From the IMG/VR virus record IMGVR_UViG_3300017782_000062, positions 1 to 39,087 of that record: 39,087 bases of DNA; one strand, given 5' to 3'. Of this stretch, positions 7,049-27,788 are shown one piece after another. A program made the position numbers and the translations under genes. The notes beneath the pieces were generated by a model. That model saw nothing but the letters and a program-made list of their open reading frames with translations, made no database searches and was not told where the DNA came from. Source of the stretch: a virus. Position 1 is the first letter of the stretch. Every line of letters begins with the position of its first letter.

Positions 7049-7669
7049 ATGGACCCGAGAAGAATAATGATGTTAGTTGAAGACTACAACGCAACTCCTG
7101 ATAAATACACAGATAAGGAAGCTGAAATGATTGCTGCTTTAGCTCAACAATCAGGTCAAGAATTTAGACAAGAATCAAAACCATTACGTAAATTAGCTTT
7201 TAATTTAGCTGATACTGCTAGTTTTGGTTTATTACCAGACAGTATATTTAAACCTGAGTCAAGAGGTGAATCTGTTTATGGACAAACTATGATTGATTCT
7301 ATTGCTAGTGGAGTTGGCGCACTTGGTGGTTTAGCTACTGGTGCTGGTGCTTTATATAAAGGTGGTATGGGTGCTTCTAAGTATTTATCTAAACCTGTAA
7401 TGGGTACTACAAACGTAACTAGAGGACAACAAATGGTAAGACAAGCTAGAGATTATGCTGCTAAATCACCATTGCTACATTCTATGAGAGCGTATGGTCA
7501 ACAAGGAACTAGTGCTATAAAAGGAACAACTGCTGGTCAAGGAGTTTCTAAAGGTTTTAATAAGTTAGTAAAAAACATGTCTGAAAAACTTTTAATATCT
7601 GAAGATGTTGCTAGAAATATTTTAATGGGTAGTGGAGCTTTAGCAGGAGCTGGTTTATACTTTGAGTAA
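7049..7669 (+). CDS. Gly/Ala-rich virion protein, paralogous to the N-terminus of the giant protein
   Basis: 206 residues. Residues 13-40 and 59-81 line up with residues 17-44 and 70-89 of the downstream 2859-residue protein. Shared features are Y-x(2,3)-PD, LA-x2-S-x3-F, an FG/FD-L-x-P block, and GE-x3-x-Q. Then comes a glycine-zipper-like hydrophobic segment (SGVGALGGLATGAGAL, about 87-102) and another at the C-terminus (MGSGALAGAGLYF). Such segments are common in proteins that insert into the envelope during ejection. AAAGGAAAAT precedes the ATG. The gene overlaps the next start by 8 nt. Confidence 0.6.
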   Translation: MDPRRIMMLVEDYNATPDKYTDKEAEMIAALAQQSGQEFRQESKPLRKLAFNLADTASFGLLPDSIFKPESRGESVYGQTMIDSIASGVGALGGLATGAGALYKGGMGASKYLSKPVMGTTNVTRGQQMVRQARDYAAKSPLLHSMRAYGQQGTSAIKGTTAGQGVSKGFNKLVKNMSEKLLISEDVARNILMGSGALAGAGLYFE

Positions 7670-10600
7670 CCCTTACGAAGGCTATAAAGTACAAAGCCTT
7701 ATAAATACATACAGGTCTAATCCTGATATGTTTAATGACGACCAGCTTGATGAGCTGGAACGTTTAGCAGAAGACAGTCAAGTAAGTTTTAAAAGATTAG
7801 AAGATAATTTTAGTCTTACAAGGGCTGTGCAACAAGCGCAGTCTGGGTTTATAGAAGGACTTACTACCTTTGATTTAGTACCTAAAGAACCACGCAATAC
7901 AGGTGAGGCTATTTTTAGGCAACTAGGTCACCTTGCAGGGTTTGCTCCTGGGATTTTAAAAGCTCCATTATCTTTATTTAGACGTAACGCTGCTTTAAGA
8001 AAAATTAAAGGTGACAGCAAGTTATATAAAACTATTGAAAATGGTATAAATACTTTAGATGCTATGTCTGTACCTATGATGTTTCAAAGAGGTACAAAGA
8101 ATCTTATAGATAGTCAATTATCTAAAAGAGGTTTAGAAACAATAGATTATTTAAAAAAAGGAGCAGTGCCTAGAGCTATAGGAACAGAAGCATTAGGTCT
8201 TGGTGTTGCTAGTGCTATAAGTAATATATGGAAAGGTTCAGATGTTATAGCTGATTCTTTTATAGGTGGTGCTATAGCAGGGGGTGCATTTGGTGGTATT
8301 GGTAATTTTGTATCTGTTGGTAATTTATATAAAGGCACACCACAACAAGTAAATCAAGCAAATAAAATATTAAGAGGTAGCGTAGCATCTGCGTTTATGG
8401 GATTACCTAGTACATTTAGGGGTGACCCTACAGAGATGCAATTGTATGAGTATTTGTTAGGTGGGTTTTTTGGATACAATACAAGACCAGCTAGAGAAGC
8501 AGCTGCTGGTGAATGGATAATGGGTTCTAAAAAGAATGGCTTTACAAGAGACATTAGAGATATAGTAGACCCAGAGCAATCTAAAGATTGGAATACTATA
8601 GATAAAAAAGCTCAAGATTATATTTTAAATGAGCATCCTGCTCCTTCATTTAAAAACTCTGAAAGATTAGAAGGTGCAACTGGTAGCGCATTAGGATGGT
8701 TACAACACAATTATAAAAACTTTAATTGGAGAAATGCTGCAATTAAACATTATGAAGCAATAGACTCTAATTGGAATACGTACAGTGACAAAGGTAAGAA
8801 TACAAAGATAGCTGAATACTATAGATGGAAAGCTAGAGAAGGTATGACTGTTGATGCTTTTGGTAAAATAGCTAATGCTGTAAGTACTTCTGAGCAATTA
8901 TATGCAGAAATGCAAAGTGATTTTATGGACCCGTTTACTAAAGAAAAAGATTCTATATCTAAGATTACTGAAGAGGTCTATAAAGATGTAAAAAAGAATG
9001 AAAAAGATTCTGTTGTATACAAAGATTTTGATTCTTTTGAAAAAGTAATTATTGACGCTACTAATAAAAGCATGGGAGAAAATGGTTCTAATAGAAGATT
9101 AGAATCTTATATAGAAGATGTAAAATCTAATTTAGACTCAGAAACATTTAAAAAGCATGAAAGAAATCTTCGTAAAAAATGGTGGACTGAAACAGAACCC
9201 GCACAAGAAGTTGCATTTTTTATAGAAGGTACAGGTAAAAATATATCTGTTGATTTTACAAAGAATGAACAAATTAATAATGTATCTATTGGTGAGAAAT
9301 ATGATAAGATGCCATTAGATTATTTAGGATACTCTAAAGGGTTTAGATTTTTAACACATGGTGTAGATAAAAACGGTGAGCCATATAAAGTATTGTCACA
9401 TAGAATGGATGGAGATGGAATTTCATTTAATGTTGGTAGAGATAAATTAATTAAAATAGAAGAAGCGTTAGCTGAAAAGAATAAATATATATTTAGCGGA
9501 GTAAAAGATAAAGACTTTTTATTAACAGCAGATTTTGTAGATAATTTACAAAGCGTAATTGTTACAAAAGATATGATTAAAAATGCTATGGCTAATGACC
9601 CTTTAGAAGCTAAGGGTATAGAAAGAGCATTTAAAGATGGGCAAGCTTCTGAACGCAATGTATTTGGTAGTGATAAAAATTACGAAAGAAAATGGGTAAG
9701 TAATATTTTACATCACGCTATGTTAAATGGATTAGTAAACAGTCAAACTAATGTAAGGAATTTAAATTTAAAAAACATGTTAATGCATGAAGGCTATGGT
9801 AAATCAGTAGCTGATTTAAATAAAAGAATGACATTGCTTACTAATAGAATGGCACCAATGCAAAAAGCTAGTTATAATGAAACTAATCCTGATGGACAAA
9901 TGAGAGGTATAATAGTTAATGATATAAACACTACAGGTAATAGTGATACAGATGGTGGTTTAATTATAGCACATAAATTCTTTGACAAAACATTAAACGT
10001 TTTAGGATTTGACCCTAGAGCAGGGCATATAAAGCCTGTAATAGGTGGGCAAACAGGATTATCAGCTTTGTTTACTAAGTCCAACGGACAAAGAGCTTCT
10101 ACAGAATGGAATAAGTTTATGGAAAGCAGAGGCTTAGATTTTGTTGTATTTAATTCTGGAGCTAAACTTAGAGGAGATTTAAAATCATCTCAATTATCTA
10201 TTGATGCTACTACTGGTAATTTATCTTCTAGTGGTACAATTGTTCACACATTACCTATAGAGCATTTACAAGTAAGTACAGGTACATATGAAAATCCTAT
10301 TAAGTCTATAAAAGGAGATGAACTTCCTTTACAAGCTTATGGTCAAAGTAATAATATACAAGCTAAAGGGTTTGCTAAAGAATACATAAGTGACGTTTTA
10401 GACAGGTCTTTAGCTGGTAGTAGAGCTGGTCAAGAATTAGTAAAACAATATGACCCTAAAAAAATAGAAAAATTTATAAAGTTATTTGAAACAAATGAAT
10501 TAGGTGTTATGGAATTACCTATGGATTTTGTAACTAAAATATTATTAAAAGACCCTAGTACGCCATTAGCTAAAAAGTTTATGGATAAATTAATGAAATT

Positions 10601-13600
10601 AGAAACAGATGGATTTTTGGATTTGGATTTTGAATTTGATTCTAACAGTAATTATAGAGAGTTTCATGCAAGTAATAAAATATTAGCTGAAGCTATGGCT
10701 GGTACTTACGCAGTTAGAAATGTTTTATTTAGAGATAACTATCATAACGCATTAAAAAAATATTTAGTAAAGAGATATGCTAATCCATTTATTGAGACTG
10801 CTGGTAAGTCTTGGTTAAAAGCTTATACTCCTGACCAATTAATTAATAAGATTGTTGACCCTGCATTAACAAAAGAACAAAAGAAGGGATTAAATGAAGG
10901 AGATTTATATTTAGATAATATGTTTAAACGTATGCTTGTAGAGCATAAACATATACCTAAAGAAGATTTAGAATCTATATACCAAAGGAAACTAAAGAAT
11001 GCACAGAAAACTGATAGCAAAGCTATTATGGAAACTATCGACAAGCGAATCACATTGGGCGAAGCTTGGGAGCAATATCTTGGGAACTACTCCAGAAAGA
11101 ACCTTAAAGCGTGGAATGAAACATTTGACCTCATCGTTATTCGCACTCCTGCTGATAGTATGTCTGGCACGAGGCAGTTACGCTTTAGGGGTTTTACAGG
11201 GCAAAGAGGCTCAGGTTCGTTCACACACCACAAGGATAATATATACCTTGGAGGTGCAGACAAAGATGCAGACAGCATCAAAATATTCCAAGGGTTCAAT
11301 AAAAATTTAAGAGATTATTATACTAAAGTAAAAGATGAAAGAAGTCACTGGAAAAAAGGAAACTCTTACGATAAGTTTATAAATGATTTATTTAGAAAAG
11401 AAGGGATGACAGATAAAGAAAGAGAACGTTTTACAGGCTACAGCAAAAGTCCAAAAGACAAAGGCTATAATAGAGAAGAGGATGTCTATAATAGAATGTT
11501 TATGTTTAGCCCTGCATATAGACATAAAGTAGCTCAGAATAGTATAGCTGGTAAAGGTGGTCTTGGTTATGGTTTAAGTGCTAAAATAGTAATGCAAAAT
11601 TGGAGAGACTTTATAGCTAACAATAAAGGCAGCATTGAATTTCCTTATCAAGATTTAGAAAAAGGGTCCTTAACTGATTACATTGCTAAAGTATCTTTAA
11701 AAAAAGGCACAGTAGAAGGTCAAAGTAGAGATCAATTTTTTAGAGATTTAGGTACAGCTATTGTTAATAAATCAGCTGATGCAAGTACAGACCCTACTGT
11801 AAGAGCTTACCCTATTTTTAGGCAAATGTTATTTGATTCTTTGTTTAAAGTAGAAAGTTTTAATGCTAAAACAGGTAAGAAAAAAGAAACTATAGATACA
11901 AAGACTGGTGAAGTAACTCAAGATTACATAGGATATAAAGGCATATTAGAACTAGCACCTTTTGGTGATTTAGCAGCAATAAAAGATGCTGTTAATATTG
12001 CTAAACCTGCTTCTCAAGTTAAAAATGTATCCTATAGGTTGATTAAAGATATTGCTTTGAATAATGTATCTTCAGAAATATCTAAAAGTCTTGGATTAAC
12101 TGTAGGTGAAAGAGCTAATTATGTTAAAAACAATAAAACATATTCTTTAATTAGATTGGAAAATGTTAGCAGAAGAATGATTGAACAAGATAAAAAAAGC
12201 AAAAATCCTAAAGGTTTAGTTTTAGGTAATGCTAGGTATCAATCAACTCCTGTAGCAAAAAGTGCTATGAGTTTATATGATGTTGGACATGGTATAAATA
12301 ATGTACAAGCTAAATTATTTGCTAAAGGAGCAGATACTGTTATACCTCAAATAGTAAAAAAAATGTATGATGCTGGCATTCAATACAATTTTTTAAATTT
12401 TCCAACAATACAAAACAATTACAAAAAATTATATTCTAATGCTGACATAAAATCAGAAGGTTTTACAGGATTGACTAGATATAGTACAAAAGAAATGTCA
12501 AAGTTTATAGAGCAACATCTTGGTTTATTGTTATCTGATTTAAGTATTGCAGCTCCTGCTCAAATAAGTTATGCTATACAGCAACAAAGAAACATAGGTA
12601 GAGCTTTAGATTACATAGGTAAATCATTAGGTAATTTTGCTACAATAGAATTATTAAATAAAAATTTTATTGATATACATAAAGCATTTAGTAATAAAGG
12701 TATAAAAGCAAATGTAATAGAAAAAGTAATACCTGCTATAGTAAAAGAAGTAAAAGATTTAAAGTCTAGATTAAGTATTGATAATAGACATAAGTTAGAC
12801 AAAGATGGAATACAATTAGATGTAGAAGCAGATATAAATGCATTTAATAAGCGTTTAATAAAAAATGCAGATGCTTTTGGTGTGAGTCCTAAATTGTTTC
12901 TTGATTATTATCACAATTTATTATTAAGTCCTATAACAGGTCAAAAAACATATGCAGGTTCTAAGTTTGCTAAGAATACATTCTATAAAGATATACATAG
13001 TTCATTAGCTATTCCATTTGTTACAAAGAAAAATTTTTATCAAAAAATGGAATCAATGCATGAACGTTCTGCAGAAACTGACACTGCATTATTAAATAAT
13101 AAACCTTTAAGTATTAAACCTAGTAGTAAGGTTACTTTAGAAGGTGTTGGTGTTGAACGTAAAAAACCTATTAAAAAAGAGTCTGCAGCAGAGAAGCAGC
13201 CAGTTAAAAAAGATTTTTTAACTATTAATGAAATGATAGGTAGTGATGTTATAGAAAAACTAGCTATAAATGATAAACAGGTAGAACAAGTAAACCAATT
13301 TAGAAAGAATCTTAATGAACATAGAGTCGTTAAAAATAATTTTGAACAATGGTTTGAATATTTTACATCAATTATTAAAGGTGGTATTGTTCCAAGGGAA
13401 GCAACAACATTTAATATGAATGATGTTATTGCAGTTAATAGATATTTTAAAGGCTTGCAAGACCCTTATAATTTAGAGTTTAAATTAAAGTATTGGTTTC
13501 TTGACCCTAGGTTTGTTGATGAAAAGCTATCTACTAAAGGATTAATTAATAAATACTTTTCTTATTTTGGTAAAGTACAAACAGCAAATAATAAACAAAC

Positions 13601-16241
13601 GTTTAAAACAAAACCTATATTTAGTTTTACTAGTCCTATTGGAGAAATAGCAAAATACTTACAAGCTTCTGAAAGATATGTAAGTAAAGATTTAAAATTT
13701 GCAGAAACAAAATTGTTTAAGCCTTTTGAAAGAATATTAAAAAACTTTAATGTTAGTGAGCAAGGTAAACTAATGGAAGAGTTGTTTAAATACGTAGAAG
13801 AAAGTTACAGACCTACTGATGTTAAGACATTAAGAACATTAGAAAAATTAGATACAGCTAGAAAAGATTTATTTGAAGGTATGCAAAAATGGATATACAC
13901 TTACGACTCTAAAGGAATTAAAGCTACTAATAATCAAGGTGAGTGGATTTTAGATAAAGATTTTTTAGGGTGGTATAAATCTACAGGTGGTGTTTTAAAT
14001 AAATATATGAGGTGGGATAAATCAGGGAGGATGGATTTAGAGCATTTTAGAAAAAGCGTTATTGAAAGTGGTAACATAAATAAAAAAGAAGTTATTGATG
14101 TAATTGGTACTGATGGAATTAAAAGGTATCAAAAAGAACACAAGCTTGAAAGACTTATATTAAATAAGCCAGAAAATAATAATCTTACTTATAGAAATAG
14201 TATAAGAAAAAAATATAAAGGCATTGGTGAAATTAATTTAGATAAATATATGCCTCATTTAAATTTTGGATATAATGAATTTTCTAGAAAAGAAATAGCA
14301 TTATATTTAGAGCAAAAAACAAATGATATATATGACACTACTTATAAAAAAGCTAAGGGAGCTGGTCTTTCTGATAAAGAAGCTGGTAAAAGAGCTGAAA
14401 AAGTATCAAAAGAGTTTGTTAGAGCTAATGAAAATAAGTTAATGCAAGCGGGAGAGTTTTTTAGTTATTCTGAATTAATAGAACCTGCTATATTAACAGA
14501 AGCAGATTTAAAATCATCTTTAACAGAGCAAGGTAGTTTAGCTAGTGTGTTAAAAGCTAGAGATGCTAATGCTCCAGGTTTTGATAAAAGACCAGAAGTT
14601 ATTTTAGATTATATTAATAAAGTTATTAGAGGTTATTATAAAAATGCTGTAGCTATTAAAGGTCAGTATGAAATAGATAACATGTTAAATAAAAATAGAA
14701 AATATAAACCTAGTAAAGCAGAATCTAAAAGATTACAAGATAGCATATATAAAAATGATGTTCAAGTATGGGGAGACTACATAAAATTATATTTACAAAG
14801 TATTTTAGGACATCAGTCTTATTTTCAATCTGGTATGTTAAGTGGTAGAGACCCATTAAAATTAAAAGATAAAAGAAATTTGTTTTATTTAACATCAGAC
14901 GAAAATGTTATAGGGATATTTGAAAAGTTTTATCAAAAGAAAAACATGTCAGCTCCTTTTTTTACTCATGCTCCTAAAGGAAAAGAAGCAAGAAAGGAGT
15001 ACTTTAGTCGTAAACTACATGAATTAGGTAGGATGGAAGCCCAGTACCAATTGATGAGTTTACTGGCTAATACTGGCACATGGGCTACTAATGTACTTAG
15101 TGGGAATGCTATGACTGCAGGTAGTGCAGGTTTAAATAATTTGTTTAGTAGTTATAATAATAAGCAAGTATATGATTTGTTATTAACAAGCAATGGTAAG
15201 GATGTAGTTAAATTAAATAATGGTAAGTTTGCTAAGAATAGAAAAGATTTATTAAAACATTTAGAAGAAGTAGGTGTTATAGATGCTTTTATACAAAATG
15301 AATTTGAAATAAATACTCAAATGACTAATGGATTAAAAAAAGCAGGAATAAACGTAGCTAATTTTAAACGTGATTTAATATTATCAATAAAAGACAAAGC
15401 TAATCGCAAAGAAACACCAATAGAAGTTATTAATCGGTACGGTGTAAAAGATTTAATGGTTAAGTATGGCTCGTTTTTTATGCAGAACTCTGAACGCATA
15501 AACAGATTAAATGCGTTTACTGCTCATGCATTGCAAACAGTTAAAAGGTTTGGAGTTGAGGGTAAGGAGCTATCAATAGCAGACCCATTTGTTTTTGACA
15601 TGGCTATGAAAGGTATTGAAAATACTCAATTTCTTTATCAAAACTCTGCAAGACCAGCATTTATGAGAACTGCTGTTGGTAAAGTATTAGGCAGATTTAA
15701 ATTGTTTGTTTGGAATTCGATACGAACAAGAAAAGAATATTACAGACAAGCTAAATTATATGGGTTTAAAAAAAATACACCAGAATATGAAAGATTTAAA
15801 AATACATATATGATAGACATGTTTATGTTTGCATTAGCTAACGCATTTATGTTTAGCATATTTGATACAGCTTTAGCTCCACCATTAGATACTGTTCAAT
15901 CTATAGCAGATAGTTTATATGGTGATAAGCGTGAAAAAGAAATGGCATTTTTTGGTAGCAAATTAGGAGCATTAAATTTATTAAAACCTCCTGTTGCTAG
16001 AATACCTGATGCAGCGTGGGAGCTGCTAACTGGCGACTGGGAAAAGTTTAGTAGTTATACTGCTTACACTATGTTTCCATTTGGTAGAGGTATAAGACAA
16101 CTTGTTCAGTTTGCAGATAAACCAGAACGAGCAGGGGAAATATTTTTAAGATTACCTGTTAATCAAATTCAATCTAAAATTGACAGAGTAAAACGTAGAA
16201 CAGAACAATTTGAAGACATTCAAGAAGTATTAGGAGATTAA
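7662..16241 (+). CDS. Giant virion-type protein with RNA-polymerase-like double-psi barrel motifs
   Basis: 2859 residues, starting with TTG inside the end of the previous gene. Seen: R1161-T-P1163, then GADKDADS with Asp1200, Asp1202 and Asp1204. This matches the R-x-P ... NADFDGD arrangement of the RNA polymerase beta-prime active site; the spacing is 39 residues here and 35 in E. coli as I recall. Upstream, D762-T-D764-GG, Lys791 (HIKPVIGG) and Lys806 (FTKSNG) fit the beta-like barrel with its two conserved lysines, in the YonO / QDE-1 / crAss gp66 order. AGKGGLGYG follows at about 1296-1304. The C-terminus has a hydrophobic stretch (about 2715-2735) and a basic end, like other giant injected proteins. 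Inference: an RNA polymerase packaged in the virion and injected with the DNA. The third Gly of DFDGD is Ala here, and activity is unproven. Alternative: a large ejection protein with an inactive barrel. Confidence 0.65.
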   Translation: MSNPYEGYKVQSLINTYRSNPDMFNDDQLDELERLAEDSQVSFKRLEDNFSLTRAVQQAQSGFIEGLTTFDLVPKEPRNTGEAIFRQLGHLAGFAPGILKAPLSLFRRNAALRKIKGDSKLYKTIENGINTLDAMSVPMMFQRGTKNLIDSQLSKRGLETIDYLKKGAVPRAIGTEALGLGVASAISNIWKGSDVIADSFIGGAIAGGAFGGIGNFVSVGNLYKGTPQQVNQANKILRGSVASAFMGLPSTFRGDPTEMQLYEYLLGGFFGYNTRPAREAAAGEWIMGSKKNGFTRDIRDIVDPEQSKDWNTIDKKAQDYILNEHPAPSFKNSERLEGATGSALGWLQHNYKNFNWRNAAIKHYEAIDSNWNTYSDKGKNTKIAEYYRWKAREGMTVDAFGKIANAVSTSEQLYAEMQSDFMDPFTKEKDSISKITEEVYKDVKKNEKDSVVYKDFDSFEKVIIDATNKSMGENGSNRRLESYIEDVKSNLDSETFKKHERNLRKKWWTETEPAQEVAFFIEGTGKNISVDFTKNEQINNVSIGEKYDKMPLDYLGYSKGFRFLTHGVDKNGEPYKVLSHRMDGDGISFNVGRDKLIKIEEALAEKNKYIFSGVKDKDFLLTADFVDNLQSVIVTKDMIKNAMANDPLEAKGIERAFKDGQASERNVFGSDKNYERKWVSNILHHAMLNGLVNSQTNVRNLNLKNMLMHEGYGKSVADLNKRMTLLTNRMAPMQKASYNETNPDGQMRGIIVNDINTTGNSDTDGGLIIAHKFFDKTLNVLGFDPRAGHIKPVIGGQTGLSALFTKSNGQRASTEWNKFMESRGLDFVVFNSGAKLRGDLKSSQLSIDATTGNLSSSGTIVHTLPIEHLQVSTGTYENPIKSIKGDELPLQAYGQSNNIQAKGFAKEYISDVLDRSLAGSRAGQELVKQYDPKKIEKFIKLFETNELGVMELPMDFVTKILLKDPSTPLAKKFMDKLMKLETDGFLDLDFEFDSNSNYREFHASNKILAEAMAGTYAVRNVLFRDNYHNALKKYLVKRYANPFIETAGKSWLKAYTPDQLINKIVDPALTKEQKKGLNEGDLYLDNMFKRMLVEHKHIPKEDLESIYQRKLKNAQKTDSKAIMETIDKRITLGEAWEQYLGNYSRKNLKAWNETFDLIVIRTPADSMSGTRQLRFRGFTGQRGSGSFTHHKDNIYLGGADKDADSIKIFQGFNKNLRDYYTKVKDERSHWKKGNSYDKFINDLFRKEGMTDKERERFTGYSKSPKDKGYNREEDVYNRMFMFSPAYRHKVAQNSIAGKGGLGYGLSAKIVMQNWRDFIANNKGSIEFPYQDLEKGSLTDYIAKVSLKKGTVEGQSRDQFFRDLGTAIVNKSADASTDPTVRAYPIFRQMLFDSLFKVESFNAKTGKKKETIDTKTGEVTQDYIGYKGILELAPFGDLAAIKDAVNIAKPASQVKNVSYRLIKDIALNNVSSEISKSLGLTVGERANYVKNNKTYSLIRLENVSRRMIEQDKKSKNPKGLVLGNARYQSTPVAKSAMSLYDVGHGINNVQAKLFAKGADTVIPQIVKKMYDAGIQYNFLNFPTIQNNYKKLYSNADIKSEGFTGLTRYSTKEMSKFIEQHLGLLLSDLSIAAPAQISYAIQQQRNIGRALDYIGKSLGNFATIELLNKNFIDIHKAFSNKGIKANVIEKVIPAIVKEVKDLKSRLSIDNRHKLDKDGIQLDVEADINAFNKRLIKNADAFGVSPKLFLDYYHNLLLSPITGQKTYAGSKFAKNTFYKDIHSSLAIPFVTKKNFYQKMESMHERSAETDTALLNNKPLSIKPSSKVTLEGVGVERKKPIKKESAAEKQPVKKDFLTINEMIGSDVIEKLAINDKQVEQVNQFRKNLNEHRVVKNNFEQWFEYFTSIIKGGIVPREATTFNMNDVIAVNRYFKGLQDPYNLEFKLKYWFLDPRFVDEKLSTKGLINKYFSYFGKVQTANNKQTFKTKPIFSFTSPIGEIAKYLQASERYVSKDLKFAETKLFKPFERILKNFNVSEQGKLMEELFKYVEESYRPTDVKTLRTLEKLDTARKDLFEGMQKWIYTYDSKGIKATNNQGEWILDKDFLGWYKSTGGVLNKYMRWDKSGRMDLEHFRKSVIESGNINKKEVIDVIGTDGIKRYQKEHKLERLILNKPENNNLTYRNSIRKKYKGIGEINLDKYMPHLNFGYNEFSRKEIALYLEQKTNDIYDTTYKKAKGAGLSDKEAGKRAEKVSKEFVRANENKLMQAGEFFSYSELIEPAILTEADLKSSLTEQGSLASVLKARDANAPGFDKRPEVILDYINKVIRGYYKNAVAIKGQYEIDNMLNKNRKYKPSKAESKRLQDSIYKNDVQVWGDYIKLYLQSILGHQSYFQSGMLSGRDPLKLKDKRNLFYLTSDENVIGIFEKFYQKKNMSAPFFTHAPKGKEARKEYFSRKLHELGRMEAQYQLMSLLANTGTWATNVLSGNAMTAGSAGLNNLFSSYNNKQVYDLLLTSNGKDVVKLNNGKFAKNRKDLLKHLEEVGVIDAFIQNEFEINTQMTNGLKKAGINVANFKRDLILSIKDKANRKETPIEVINRYGVKDLMVKYGSFFMQNSERINRLNAFTAHALQTVKRFGVEGKELSIADPFVFDMAMKGIENTQFLYQNSARPAFMRTAVGKVLGRFKLFVWNSIRTRKEYYRQAKLYGFKKNTPEYERFKNTYMIDMFMFALANAFMFSIFDTALAPPLDTVQSIADSLYGDKREKEMAFFGSKLGALNLLKPPVARIPDAAWELLTGDWEKFSSYTAYTMFPFGRGIRQLVQFADKPERAGEIFLRLPVNQIQSKIDRVKRRTEQFEDIQEVLGD

Positions 16242-16242
16242 C

Positions 16243-16989
16243 ATGAGTAATGGATTAACAGATATAGAAAAACAAGCACATTTGCTTGACCAAGAGTTTG
16301 TAAAAAGAGCATTTAATTCTTGGAATCCAAATATGTACAATGCACAACAATTTAGGTCAGGTAGAAAAACTTACTCTGGTGACATAAAAGAGGCTATTGA
16401 CGATAGAATGATTTCTGTATATGGTGGTATAAGACCAGAATTATATAATAAAATACAAGGTTCTGAAAATACCAAAGGCTTGTTTGCTGCTGAAACTGGT
16501 GAAGCGTATCTTAAACGTGGTTCAGGAGCAGGAACTTTAAATCATGAACTTGCGCATTATGGTAGACAACATAAAAATATTGACCCCAATCATTATTTAG
16601 CAGATAAATTTAATCCTAAACTAAATTTATGGGATAAACTAGACAAAAATATATTTAATGGTTACTTGCCATTTACTCCTTATGAAACAAGACGTCAAAA
16701 TATTAAAAGATATGGAGAAAAAAATGGAGCTATACAACATGAACAAACTTATAGAGATGAAAATCCTATTCATCCTTATGACACACAATTTAACTTTGAT
16801 AGAGTAGCTGAAAATACTGATTATTATAATCCTGCTGCTGATAGTGTAAATCAAGATTTATATAAATATTCTTTTTATGATTATGATTCTAGAGTTGCTA
16901 GAGGTGAAATACAGCCTGATTCTCCACAGCAAGAACCATTAGGTAGAAGAGCTATTAAAAGCGTTAGAGGCTGGATGGGTTTAGATTAG
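16243..16989 (+). CDS. Small HExxH putative metallopeptidase, last gene of tail module
   Basis: 248 residues starting 1 nt after the giant gene. LNHELAHYGRQH at residues 99-110 holds a HExxH zinc motif (His101, Glu102, His105) with another histidine at 110. That resembles a metzincin HExxHxxGxxH shortened by one residue. The rest is polar, Tyr/Asn-rich and not recognised; the C-terminus is basic (RRAIKSVRGWMGLD). A virion protease that processes ejected proteins or cuts the cell wall is possible. No other peptidase block was seen, so the motif alone carries the call. Confidence 0.5.
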   Translation: MSNGLTDIEKQAHLLDQEFVKRAFNSWNPNMYNAQQFRSGRKTYSGDIKEAIDDRMISVYGGIRPELYNKIQGSENTKGLFAAETGEAYLKRGSGAGTLNHELAHYGRQHKNIDPNHYLADKFNPKLNLWDKLDKNIFNGYLPFTPYETRRQNIKRYGEKNGAIQHEQTYRDENPIHPYDTQFNFDRVAENTDYYNPAADSVNQDLYKYSFYDYDSRVARGEIQPDSPQQEPLGRRAIKSVRGWMGLD

Positions 16990-25441: not shown

Positions 25442-25466
25442 TTTTACCTCCGTTTGTTTTAATATT

Positions 25467-25480
25467 AGAAATAAAGGAAG
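25467..25480 (-). promoter_or_regulatory. Repeated promoter-like motif, copy 1 (replication operon)
   Basis: On the minus strand this reads CTTCCTTTATTTCT, one of five copies of a T/A-TCCTTTAT-Y-T motif placed shortly upstream of minus-strand units. The core is 30 nt before the 25441 start. It is the only strong candidate site to drive the long operon 25441 to 17137. Confidence 0.5.
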
Positions 25481-26433: not shown

Positions 26434-26437
26434 GTTA

Positions 26438-26452
26438 TAAATAAAGGAAACT
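26438..26452 (-). promoter_or_regulatory. Repeated promoter-like motif, copy 2 (before the structured RNA)
   Basis: The minus strand reads AGTTTCCTTTATTTA. The core ends at 26441, 8 nt before the first helix of the ORF-free structured region. No coding start follows for about 1 kb, so this copy would drive a noncoding transcript. Confidence 0.5.
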
Positions 26453-26981: not shown

Positions 26982-27000
26982 ACCAGAGATAAAGGATTAA
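26982..27000 (-). promoter_or_regulatory. Repeated promoter-like motif, copy 3
   Basis: The minus strand reads TTAATCCTTTATCTCTGGT. The core is 26989-26996, 47 nt upstream of the 26942 start. It agrees with copy 5 over at least 14 consecutive positions, including the terminal CTCTGG. Confidence 0.55.
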
Positions 27001-27405: not shown

Positions 27406-27428
27406 GTATACCTCCATGTTTATTTATA

Positions 27429-27441
27429 GATAAAGGATTAA
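27429..27441 (-). promoter_or_regulatory. Repeated promoter-like motif, copy 4
   Basis: The minus strand reads TTAATCCTTTATCTATA. The core is 27432-27439, 27 nt upstream of the 27405 start and directly after the hairpin that closes the previous gene unit. Confidence 0.5.
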
Positions 27442-27769: not shown

Positions 27770-27788
27770 ACCAGAGATAAAGGATTAC
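27770..27788 (-). promoter_or_regulatory. Repeated promoter-like motif, copy 5
   Basis: The minus strand reads GTAATCCTTTATCTCTGG. The core is 27777-27784, about 40 nt upstream of the 27736 start. Like copy 3 it is followed by TRTTTA, extending the shared block to more than 18 positions. Confidence 0.55.

Follow-up and report, generated by a model that had tools for sequence, protein, structure and literature searches.

We report that residues ~520-1420 of a giant protein encoded by an uncultured virus very probably constitute a single-chain DNA-dependent RNA polymerase built on two double-psi beta-barrels (DPBBs), which would be packaged in the virion, ejected into the host cell and used there to transcribe the early gene block. 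The window, i.e. the whole stretch of DNA that was analysed, is an IMG/VR record of an uncultured virus with 39,087 bases, and the source phage is small, uncultured and probably of marine origin. The protein is the product of an open reading frame (ORF) at positions 7662..16241 of the plus strand, which opens with a TTG start codon, runs through 2859 amino acids (aa) without a stop and takes up about one fifth of the genome sequence; the embedded polymerase was assigned from this ORF, AlphaFold modelling and fold searches. It is preceded by an N-terminal region (~1-520) and followed by a large C-terminal region (~1600-2859). Packaged two-barrel RNA polymerases have been reported earlier from crAss-like phages, jumbo phages and one Thermus phage group; thus, two-barrel virion polymerases are already known as such. 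What is new here, as judged by the open-licence literature, is a deeply diverged family, its ~45-kb genomes, a correspondence of three lysines, domain insertions and a candidate promoter. Our best call is that the giant protein belongs to a new family of virion RNA polymerases, giant enzymes with two barrels in a single chain that have diverged deeply, and that the phage probably injects a polymerase of its own, with which its genes are started independently of the host. This would extend packaged two-barrel polymerases to small, apparently podovirus-like genomes, and the single-chain two-barrel enzymes would gain a deeply diverged branch.

The fold of the polymerase was predicted by modelling residues 520-1600 in AlphaFold2 with 21 family sequences (a modest alignment), which yielded a core model with a pLDDT of 79.3 and a pTM of 0.83. 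When this core was searched against the PDB with Foldseek, the best match was gp66 of phage phi14:2 (6VR4; E 1.5e-9), followed by QDE-1 (1.3e-5). VIA-align likewise placed gp66 first (Z 11.3, 707 residues, 4.4 A), with P74 gp62 (10.6), RDR2 (10.6) and QDE-1 (about 9) below it; since the Z-score of gp66 lies within 1 of those of P74 gp62 and RDR2, its closeness rests mainly on Foldseek and on the profile comparison described below. The other VIA-align matches listed were the largest subunits of cellular RNA polymerases (Z < 8), and all the fold matches listed for the core are two-barrel or multisubunit enzymes; the absence of a structural family from these lists was given no weight against any reading. 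Among viral predicted structures, the best matches of the core were large phage proteins and then crAss proteins.

Both barrels are present in the predicted structure. The first one (DPBB-B, beta-subunit type; residues ~720-877, 9819..10292, plus strand) was also modelled alone, with a pLDDT of 69 that is weaker than that of the core model, and this isolated barrel matched gp66 (Z 12.0, 142 residues, 3.2 A), then RDR2 and QDE-1 (Z 6-7); lower matches were p97 N-domains, formate dehydrogenases and a designed double-psi barrel, all of which we take to be further double-psi barrels. The core of the second barrel (DPBB-A, beta-prime type; residues ~1155-1227, 11124..11342, plus strand) was located by HHalign to the crAss polymerases and by a match to Rpb1, in which the barrel (within residues 1040-1227, i.e. 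model residues 521-708) superposed on Rpb1 341-513 over 137 residues at 3.6 A (Z 7.5). The preliminary description had proposed, from motifs, two barrels of the QDE-1/crAss gp66 type, and the models agree with it, as both the core and the isolated first barrel match gp66 best, with RDR2 and QDE-1 below. Two double-psi barrels in the core, as predicted, would leave no place for a T7-like single-subunit fold. Behind the second barrel follow a bridge-helix-like segment (FSPAYR...GKGGLGYGLSAK, residues 1280-1322, 11499..11627, plus strand) and a trigger-loop-like segment (IVNKSADASTDPT, residues 1356-1392, 11727..11837, plus strand), which HHalign places weakly but colinearly on the GGKSGVGITAN region and the FVDNAKDP segment of gp66, respectively; these alignments are in the correct order but weak (P 0.06-0.5), and the model has helices there. 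In the proposed order of parts, the lysine-bearing first barrel is followed by a connector, then by the second barrel, which carries RxP...DxDxD, and last by the putative bridge helix and trigger loop.

The residues of the putative active site are highly conserved among relatives. Scans of IMG/VR first returned close relatives at 93%, 54% and 50% identity, and the active-site block alone as a query recovered 29 loci, the most remote of which had 36-39% identity. When 16 diverged members (33-94% identity) were aligned, D764, G765, K791, K806, K835, R1161, P1163, D1200, D1202 and D1204 proved invariant in 16/16. On the plus strand, these include K791 (in KPV; 10032..10034), K806 (10077..10079), K835 (in AKLRG; 10164..10166), the R-x-P motif R1161/P1163 (11142..11150) and the metal-binding triad D1200-K-D1202-A-D1204 (11259..11273). 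The positions given earlier for K791, K806, R1161, P1163 and the three aspartates are correct, the string around the latter being GGADKDADS. As for the D-x-DGG element proposed upstream, its D764 and G765 are invariant, but D762 is not; similarly, both lysines named there hold, but the invariant lysines of the first barrel are three in number, K835 having gone unnamed. Within the 40 residues that begin at 1161, 21 are invariant, which only the N-terminal region around 201-240 equals, and the DxDxD block is conserved above nearly all other parts of the giant protein. The three aspartates would hold Mg, and the first-barrel lysines would contact nucleotide or RNA phosphates, as in gp66 and QDE-1. 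Closeness of these aspartates to the lysines, as a common active site would require, has indirect support from the superposition of the whole core on gp66 (707 residues, 4.4 A). Taken together, the motifs, their invariance and the predicted fold suggest that the protein is catalytic.

In the comparison with crAss-like phages, we used a set consisting of phi14:2 gp66 and nine relatives, which share the motif R-x-P ... DFD[VI]D or one near it. The profile of the giant protein aligned to these polymerases with an HHalign score of 41.0 (P 0.0018), RxP falling on RxP and DxDxD on DxDxD, whereas the best of 100 column-shuffled profiles scored 26.0 and the reversed profile 20.5; the HHalign probabilities are low (15-22%), though P is ~0.001-0.002. 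Furthermore, K1012, K1027 and K1065 of gp66, which do not vary among the crAss enzymes, show together with M1050 local spacings equal to those of K791, K806, K835 and M820, with 15 residues from the first lysine to the second and 15 from the Met to the third in both proteins. K791 and K806 are thus the spacing equivalents of K1012 and K1027, HHalign pairs K835 with VKVG of gp66 (K1065), and R1161/P1163 correspond to R1322/P1324. The alanine between the second and third aspartates had been pointed out in the preliminary description as a departure from the usual Gly, but the comparison shows that it is no objection: gp66 has DFDID and the other crAss enzymes DFD[VI]D, so Gly is not required there either, and within the new family this residue is A, S, I or G. 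The Gly of DxDGD is evidently free to vary in families of this kind.

The giant protein thus resembles gp66 and the other crAss virion polymerases in having both double-psi barrels on one chain and in like order, in an RxP ~40 residues ahead of DxDxD, in three invariant lysines with matching spacing, in a non-Gly residue within DxDxD (I/V in crAss enzymes), in putative bridge-helix (GK-G-G) and trigger-loop (DP) segments, and in its place in a tail/cargo gene block near endolysin and metallophosphoesterase genes; the gene order of phi14:2 (endolysin, metallophosphoesterase, tail proteins, then gp66) is comparable. On the other hand, identity to gp66 in the structural alignment is only ~11%, with no tblastn match; the phages of the family have ~40-50 kb rather than the ~100 kb of crAss-like phages; the polymerase is fused to different end regions; some family members carry AlkB or DUF4326 insertions; and the trigger-loop lysine is not conserved. 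The gp66 lysine concerned, K1615, has been named as a functional equivalent (PMC8713982) and is present in RDR2 as well, and its position holds T/N/S in the window lineage and K in L030, L037, L038, L040 and L042. A separate subunit like gp49/gp65 was not recognised in the window phage. As the single-phage contigs of the family are 36-50 kb and the portal is P22-like and podoviral, unlike the ~100-kb genomes with the crAss structural gene set that typify Crassvirales, we do not assign the giant protein to the Crassvirales enzymes, although it appears to work in their manner.

The gene context points to a virion protein. The window encodes a P22-type portal, which matches P22-like podoviral portals, as well as a terminase, a capsid protein, an endolysin, a metallophosphoesterase, a DnaB-type primase-helicase (DnaB and PriCT domains), an ERF recombinase and a DUF932 protein; it is near-complete, but cut within a tail gene. 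The giant gene stands at the end of the rightward, late tail block, after the endolysin, the metallophosphoesterase and a 1,105-aa protein, and apart from the leftward early block. Directly upstream lies a 206-aa gene (7049..7669, plus strand) with an N-terminus like that of the giant protein, whose product is a candidate co-ejected protein; its orthologue in the related contig G002 matches giant residues 9-98. The giant protein itself contains a hydrophobic Gly/Ala-rich segment at residues ~195-220 (8244..8321, plus strand) within a strongly conserved region, and a second hydrophobic segment at residues ~2715-2740 (15804..15881, plus strand), both detected by a hydropathy scan. Residues ~81-110 and 165-275 (7902-8486) are Gly/Ala-rich and conserved like the active site, with 15-21 invariant residues per 40, and this conservation suggests a constrained membrane or channel function. 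From the gene position, the hydrophobic segments and the precedents of gp66, N4 and P23-45, we infer that the protein is packaged and injected: it would be made late, packaged alongside ejection proteins and threaded into the host together with the DNA. Its hydrophobic end regions may serve as anchors, and the polymerase would then transcribe the leftward early block.

Three known systems are relevant to this proposal. First, phi14:2 gp66 and the polymerase of crAss001 are precedents for virion cargo polymerases (PMC7886860, PMC10172136), the crAss001 polymerase proteins being carried as virion cargo (PMC10172136). Second, gp96 of phage P23-45 is a virion RNA polymerase (vRNAP) fused to the tail tape measure protein (PMC10770324), and, as is proposed here for the window, a two-barrel polymerase forms one part of a giant virion/tail protein; however, that polymerase is N-terminal and clampless and belongs to a long-tailed phage, whereas the one described here is central and its phage podovirus-looking, and HHalign of the window profile against gp96 gave no registered match. 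A non-virion counterpart (nvRNAP), P74 gp62, which goes with P23-45 gp64, has the Z of 10.6 against the window core given above. Third, N4 gp50 (~3,500 aa) has a membrane-like N-terminus, a central polymerase and a large C-terminal domain, and is ejected with the DNA (PMC12633501); the giant protein has the same succession of parts, but the N4 polymerase has the T7-type single-subunit fold, which is unrelated to the two-barrel fold, and the likeness in layout would be due to convergence. The parallel suggests convergence on a 'membrane entry module + polymerase + large C-terminus'. A working mode outside the virion, in which an active two-barrel polymerase fused to a structural protein acts after its synthesis in the cell, is in our judgement unlikely. 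Non-virion two-barrel polymerases do exist, such as P23-45 gp64 (PMC10770324), but the gene belongs to the late tail block and is separated from the early genes, the large non-polymerase regions are conserved and carry hydrophobic segments at both ends, and gp66 and P23-45 gp96, the giant fused two-barrel enzymes for which virion data exist, are packaged.

A motif scan of the early block points to a candidate promoter. The sequence TCCTTTATNTNTRR occurs at five sites between 25465 and 27784, all on the early (minus) strand and none elsewhere in the window, with 0.08 sites expected and none in 100 shuffles. These candidate early promoters are TCCTTTATTTCTAA (25465..25478), TCCTTTATTTATAA (26435..26448), TCCTTTATCTCTGG (26983..26996 and again 27771..27784) and TCCTTTATCTATAA (27424..27437), all on the minus strand. 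The 8-mer has 52 early-strand copies in 11 genomes; most of these lie no further than 110 nt from a start codon that has a ribosome site, and conservation extends beyond the seed to T at +9 and +11 and to R at +12. A scan of the early block for sigma-70 promoters found 45 against 55 expected by chance, i.e. chance level. The motif is absent from the distant phage. We consider TCCTTTATNTNTRR, a non-sigma70 motif, to be a candidate cognate promoter of the giant polymerase, lying ~20-50 nt upstream of early genes, from which early transcription would probably start. P23-45 likewise has an AT-rich early promoter motif (PMC10770324). Such a candidate makes promoter recognition by two-barrel virion polymerases directly testable in vitro.

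It is quite improbable that the polymerase mainly makes another product, as a replicative primase, an RNA-dependent polymerase or a DNA polymerase would. The RNA interference enzymes QDE-1 and RDR2, which are RNA-dependent and rank just under gp66, share with the window protein two barrels in one chain and, putatively, a bridge helix and a trigger loop (core Z 8.4-10.6; first barrel ~6-7), and no DNA polymerase was recognised in the window; more generally, no RNA or DNA polymerase besides the giant protein was recognised among the window proteins scanned, and no further polymerase in the family phages of ~40-50 kb. These RNA interference enzymes are eukaryotic and not found in virions, RDR2 having the motif DLDGD. 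Against another main product, gp66, which is the best match, is a virion RNA polymerase that depends on DNA, a separate primase-helicase with DnaB and PriCT domains is encoded, and a promoter-like motif is present on the early strand.

That the barrels are a dead relic retained for a structural role is still less credible, even though the trigger-loop lysine has been lost in the window lineage and the residue between the second and third aspartates is not Gly. The triad, the RxP motif and the lysines do not vary among members as distant as 33% identity, a homologue at ~23% retains them too, and the DxDxD block exceeds nearly all other parts in conservation. This distant homologue (L059:1313-10546 on contig G011; 23% identity, HHalign E 1e-26) has a classical MDVDGD together with RVP and the lysine positions. 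That the motifs arose by chance in an unrelated tail protein can practically be dismissed, since, despite the lack of any relation in Pfam, PHROGs and PDB sequence searches, the whole core and the isolated first barrel independently match two-barrel polymerases and the profile match scores above all shuffles. These searches, with the giant protein or its profile, returned nothing relevant, but PHROGs gave no match for gp66 or crAss001 gp50 either, and its silence on the giant protein is therefore uninformative. With tblastn against GenBank phages, neither the window protein nor the distant homologue found a match, and with L044 as the query the AlkB insert alone did.

The reading of the giant protein as a packaged and ejected polymerase can be widened to the ~45-kb phages as a group, although we regard this wider picture as evenly poised between right and wrong. 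Their early programme would be run by the ejected two-barrel polymerase and its cognate TCCTTTATNTNTRR before individual early genes, often directly behind a hairpin; the giant protein would be the convergent equivalent of the N4 polymerase, and in some relatives an AlkB-type repair domain would travel in the same ejected chain. As to the hairpins, a strong one lies upstream of 52% of the early-motif sites against 10% of the background, and we considered whether the element requires it, as N4 promoters do. Since a strong hairpin stands at only 52% of sites, many of these hairpins are more likely terminators of the preceding gene. The element recurs before early genes in L057, L062, L065 and L074-L079, often just behind a GC-rich hairpin, and near the start of the late block of relatives some TCCTTTATNTNTRR copies form part of a hairpin loop (GGGCACA...TGTGCCC). 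The L018-L025 clade has an altered element, which is CTTTATCTTTGA-like at the corresponding genes.

Genome size was estimated from the relatives. Their single-phage contigs span 36-50 kb, with a unit of about 44-45 kb, which puts the genome at ~40-50 kb, as the one of 89 kb appears to be two joined phages. The contigs of 73 kb and 89 kb were considered as a sign of larger genomes and rejected as such: G011 (88,986 bp) seems to combine two related phages, whose terminases are separated by 44.7 kb, and G004 (73,241 bp) has an apparently second, unrelated set of structural genes. Both apparent joins are either assembly chimeras or real concatenation. In bacterial genomes the sole match was L056 (DIAL01000052.1), a 5.3-kb contig in a Flavobacteriaceae metagenome-assembled genome, which is a weak hint of a Flavobacteriaceae host; the phage contig is possibly mis-binned.

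Directly downstream of the giant gene lies a 248-aa gene (16243..16989, plus strand) with a zinc-protease-like HExxH motif (HELAH), for which Pfam and PHROGs gave no match; its equivalents also follow the giant gene in L003, L014 and L015. A metallopeptidase is likewise included in the tape measure protein of P23-45 (PMC10770324). The giant proteins of some relatives contain inserted domains. An AlkB-like 2OG-Fe(II) oxygenase domain (~200 aa, PF13532), which the window protein does not have, is inserted at window residue ~1818 in L003, L014 and L015, and after residue 1230 in L044 and possibly L043; a repair or demethylase domain ejected on a virion polymerase would be unusual. In addition, the giant proteins of L033 and L043 have ~114 aa, likely a DUF4326 domain, inserted at window residue ~1074, in the connector between the two barrels.
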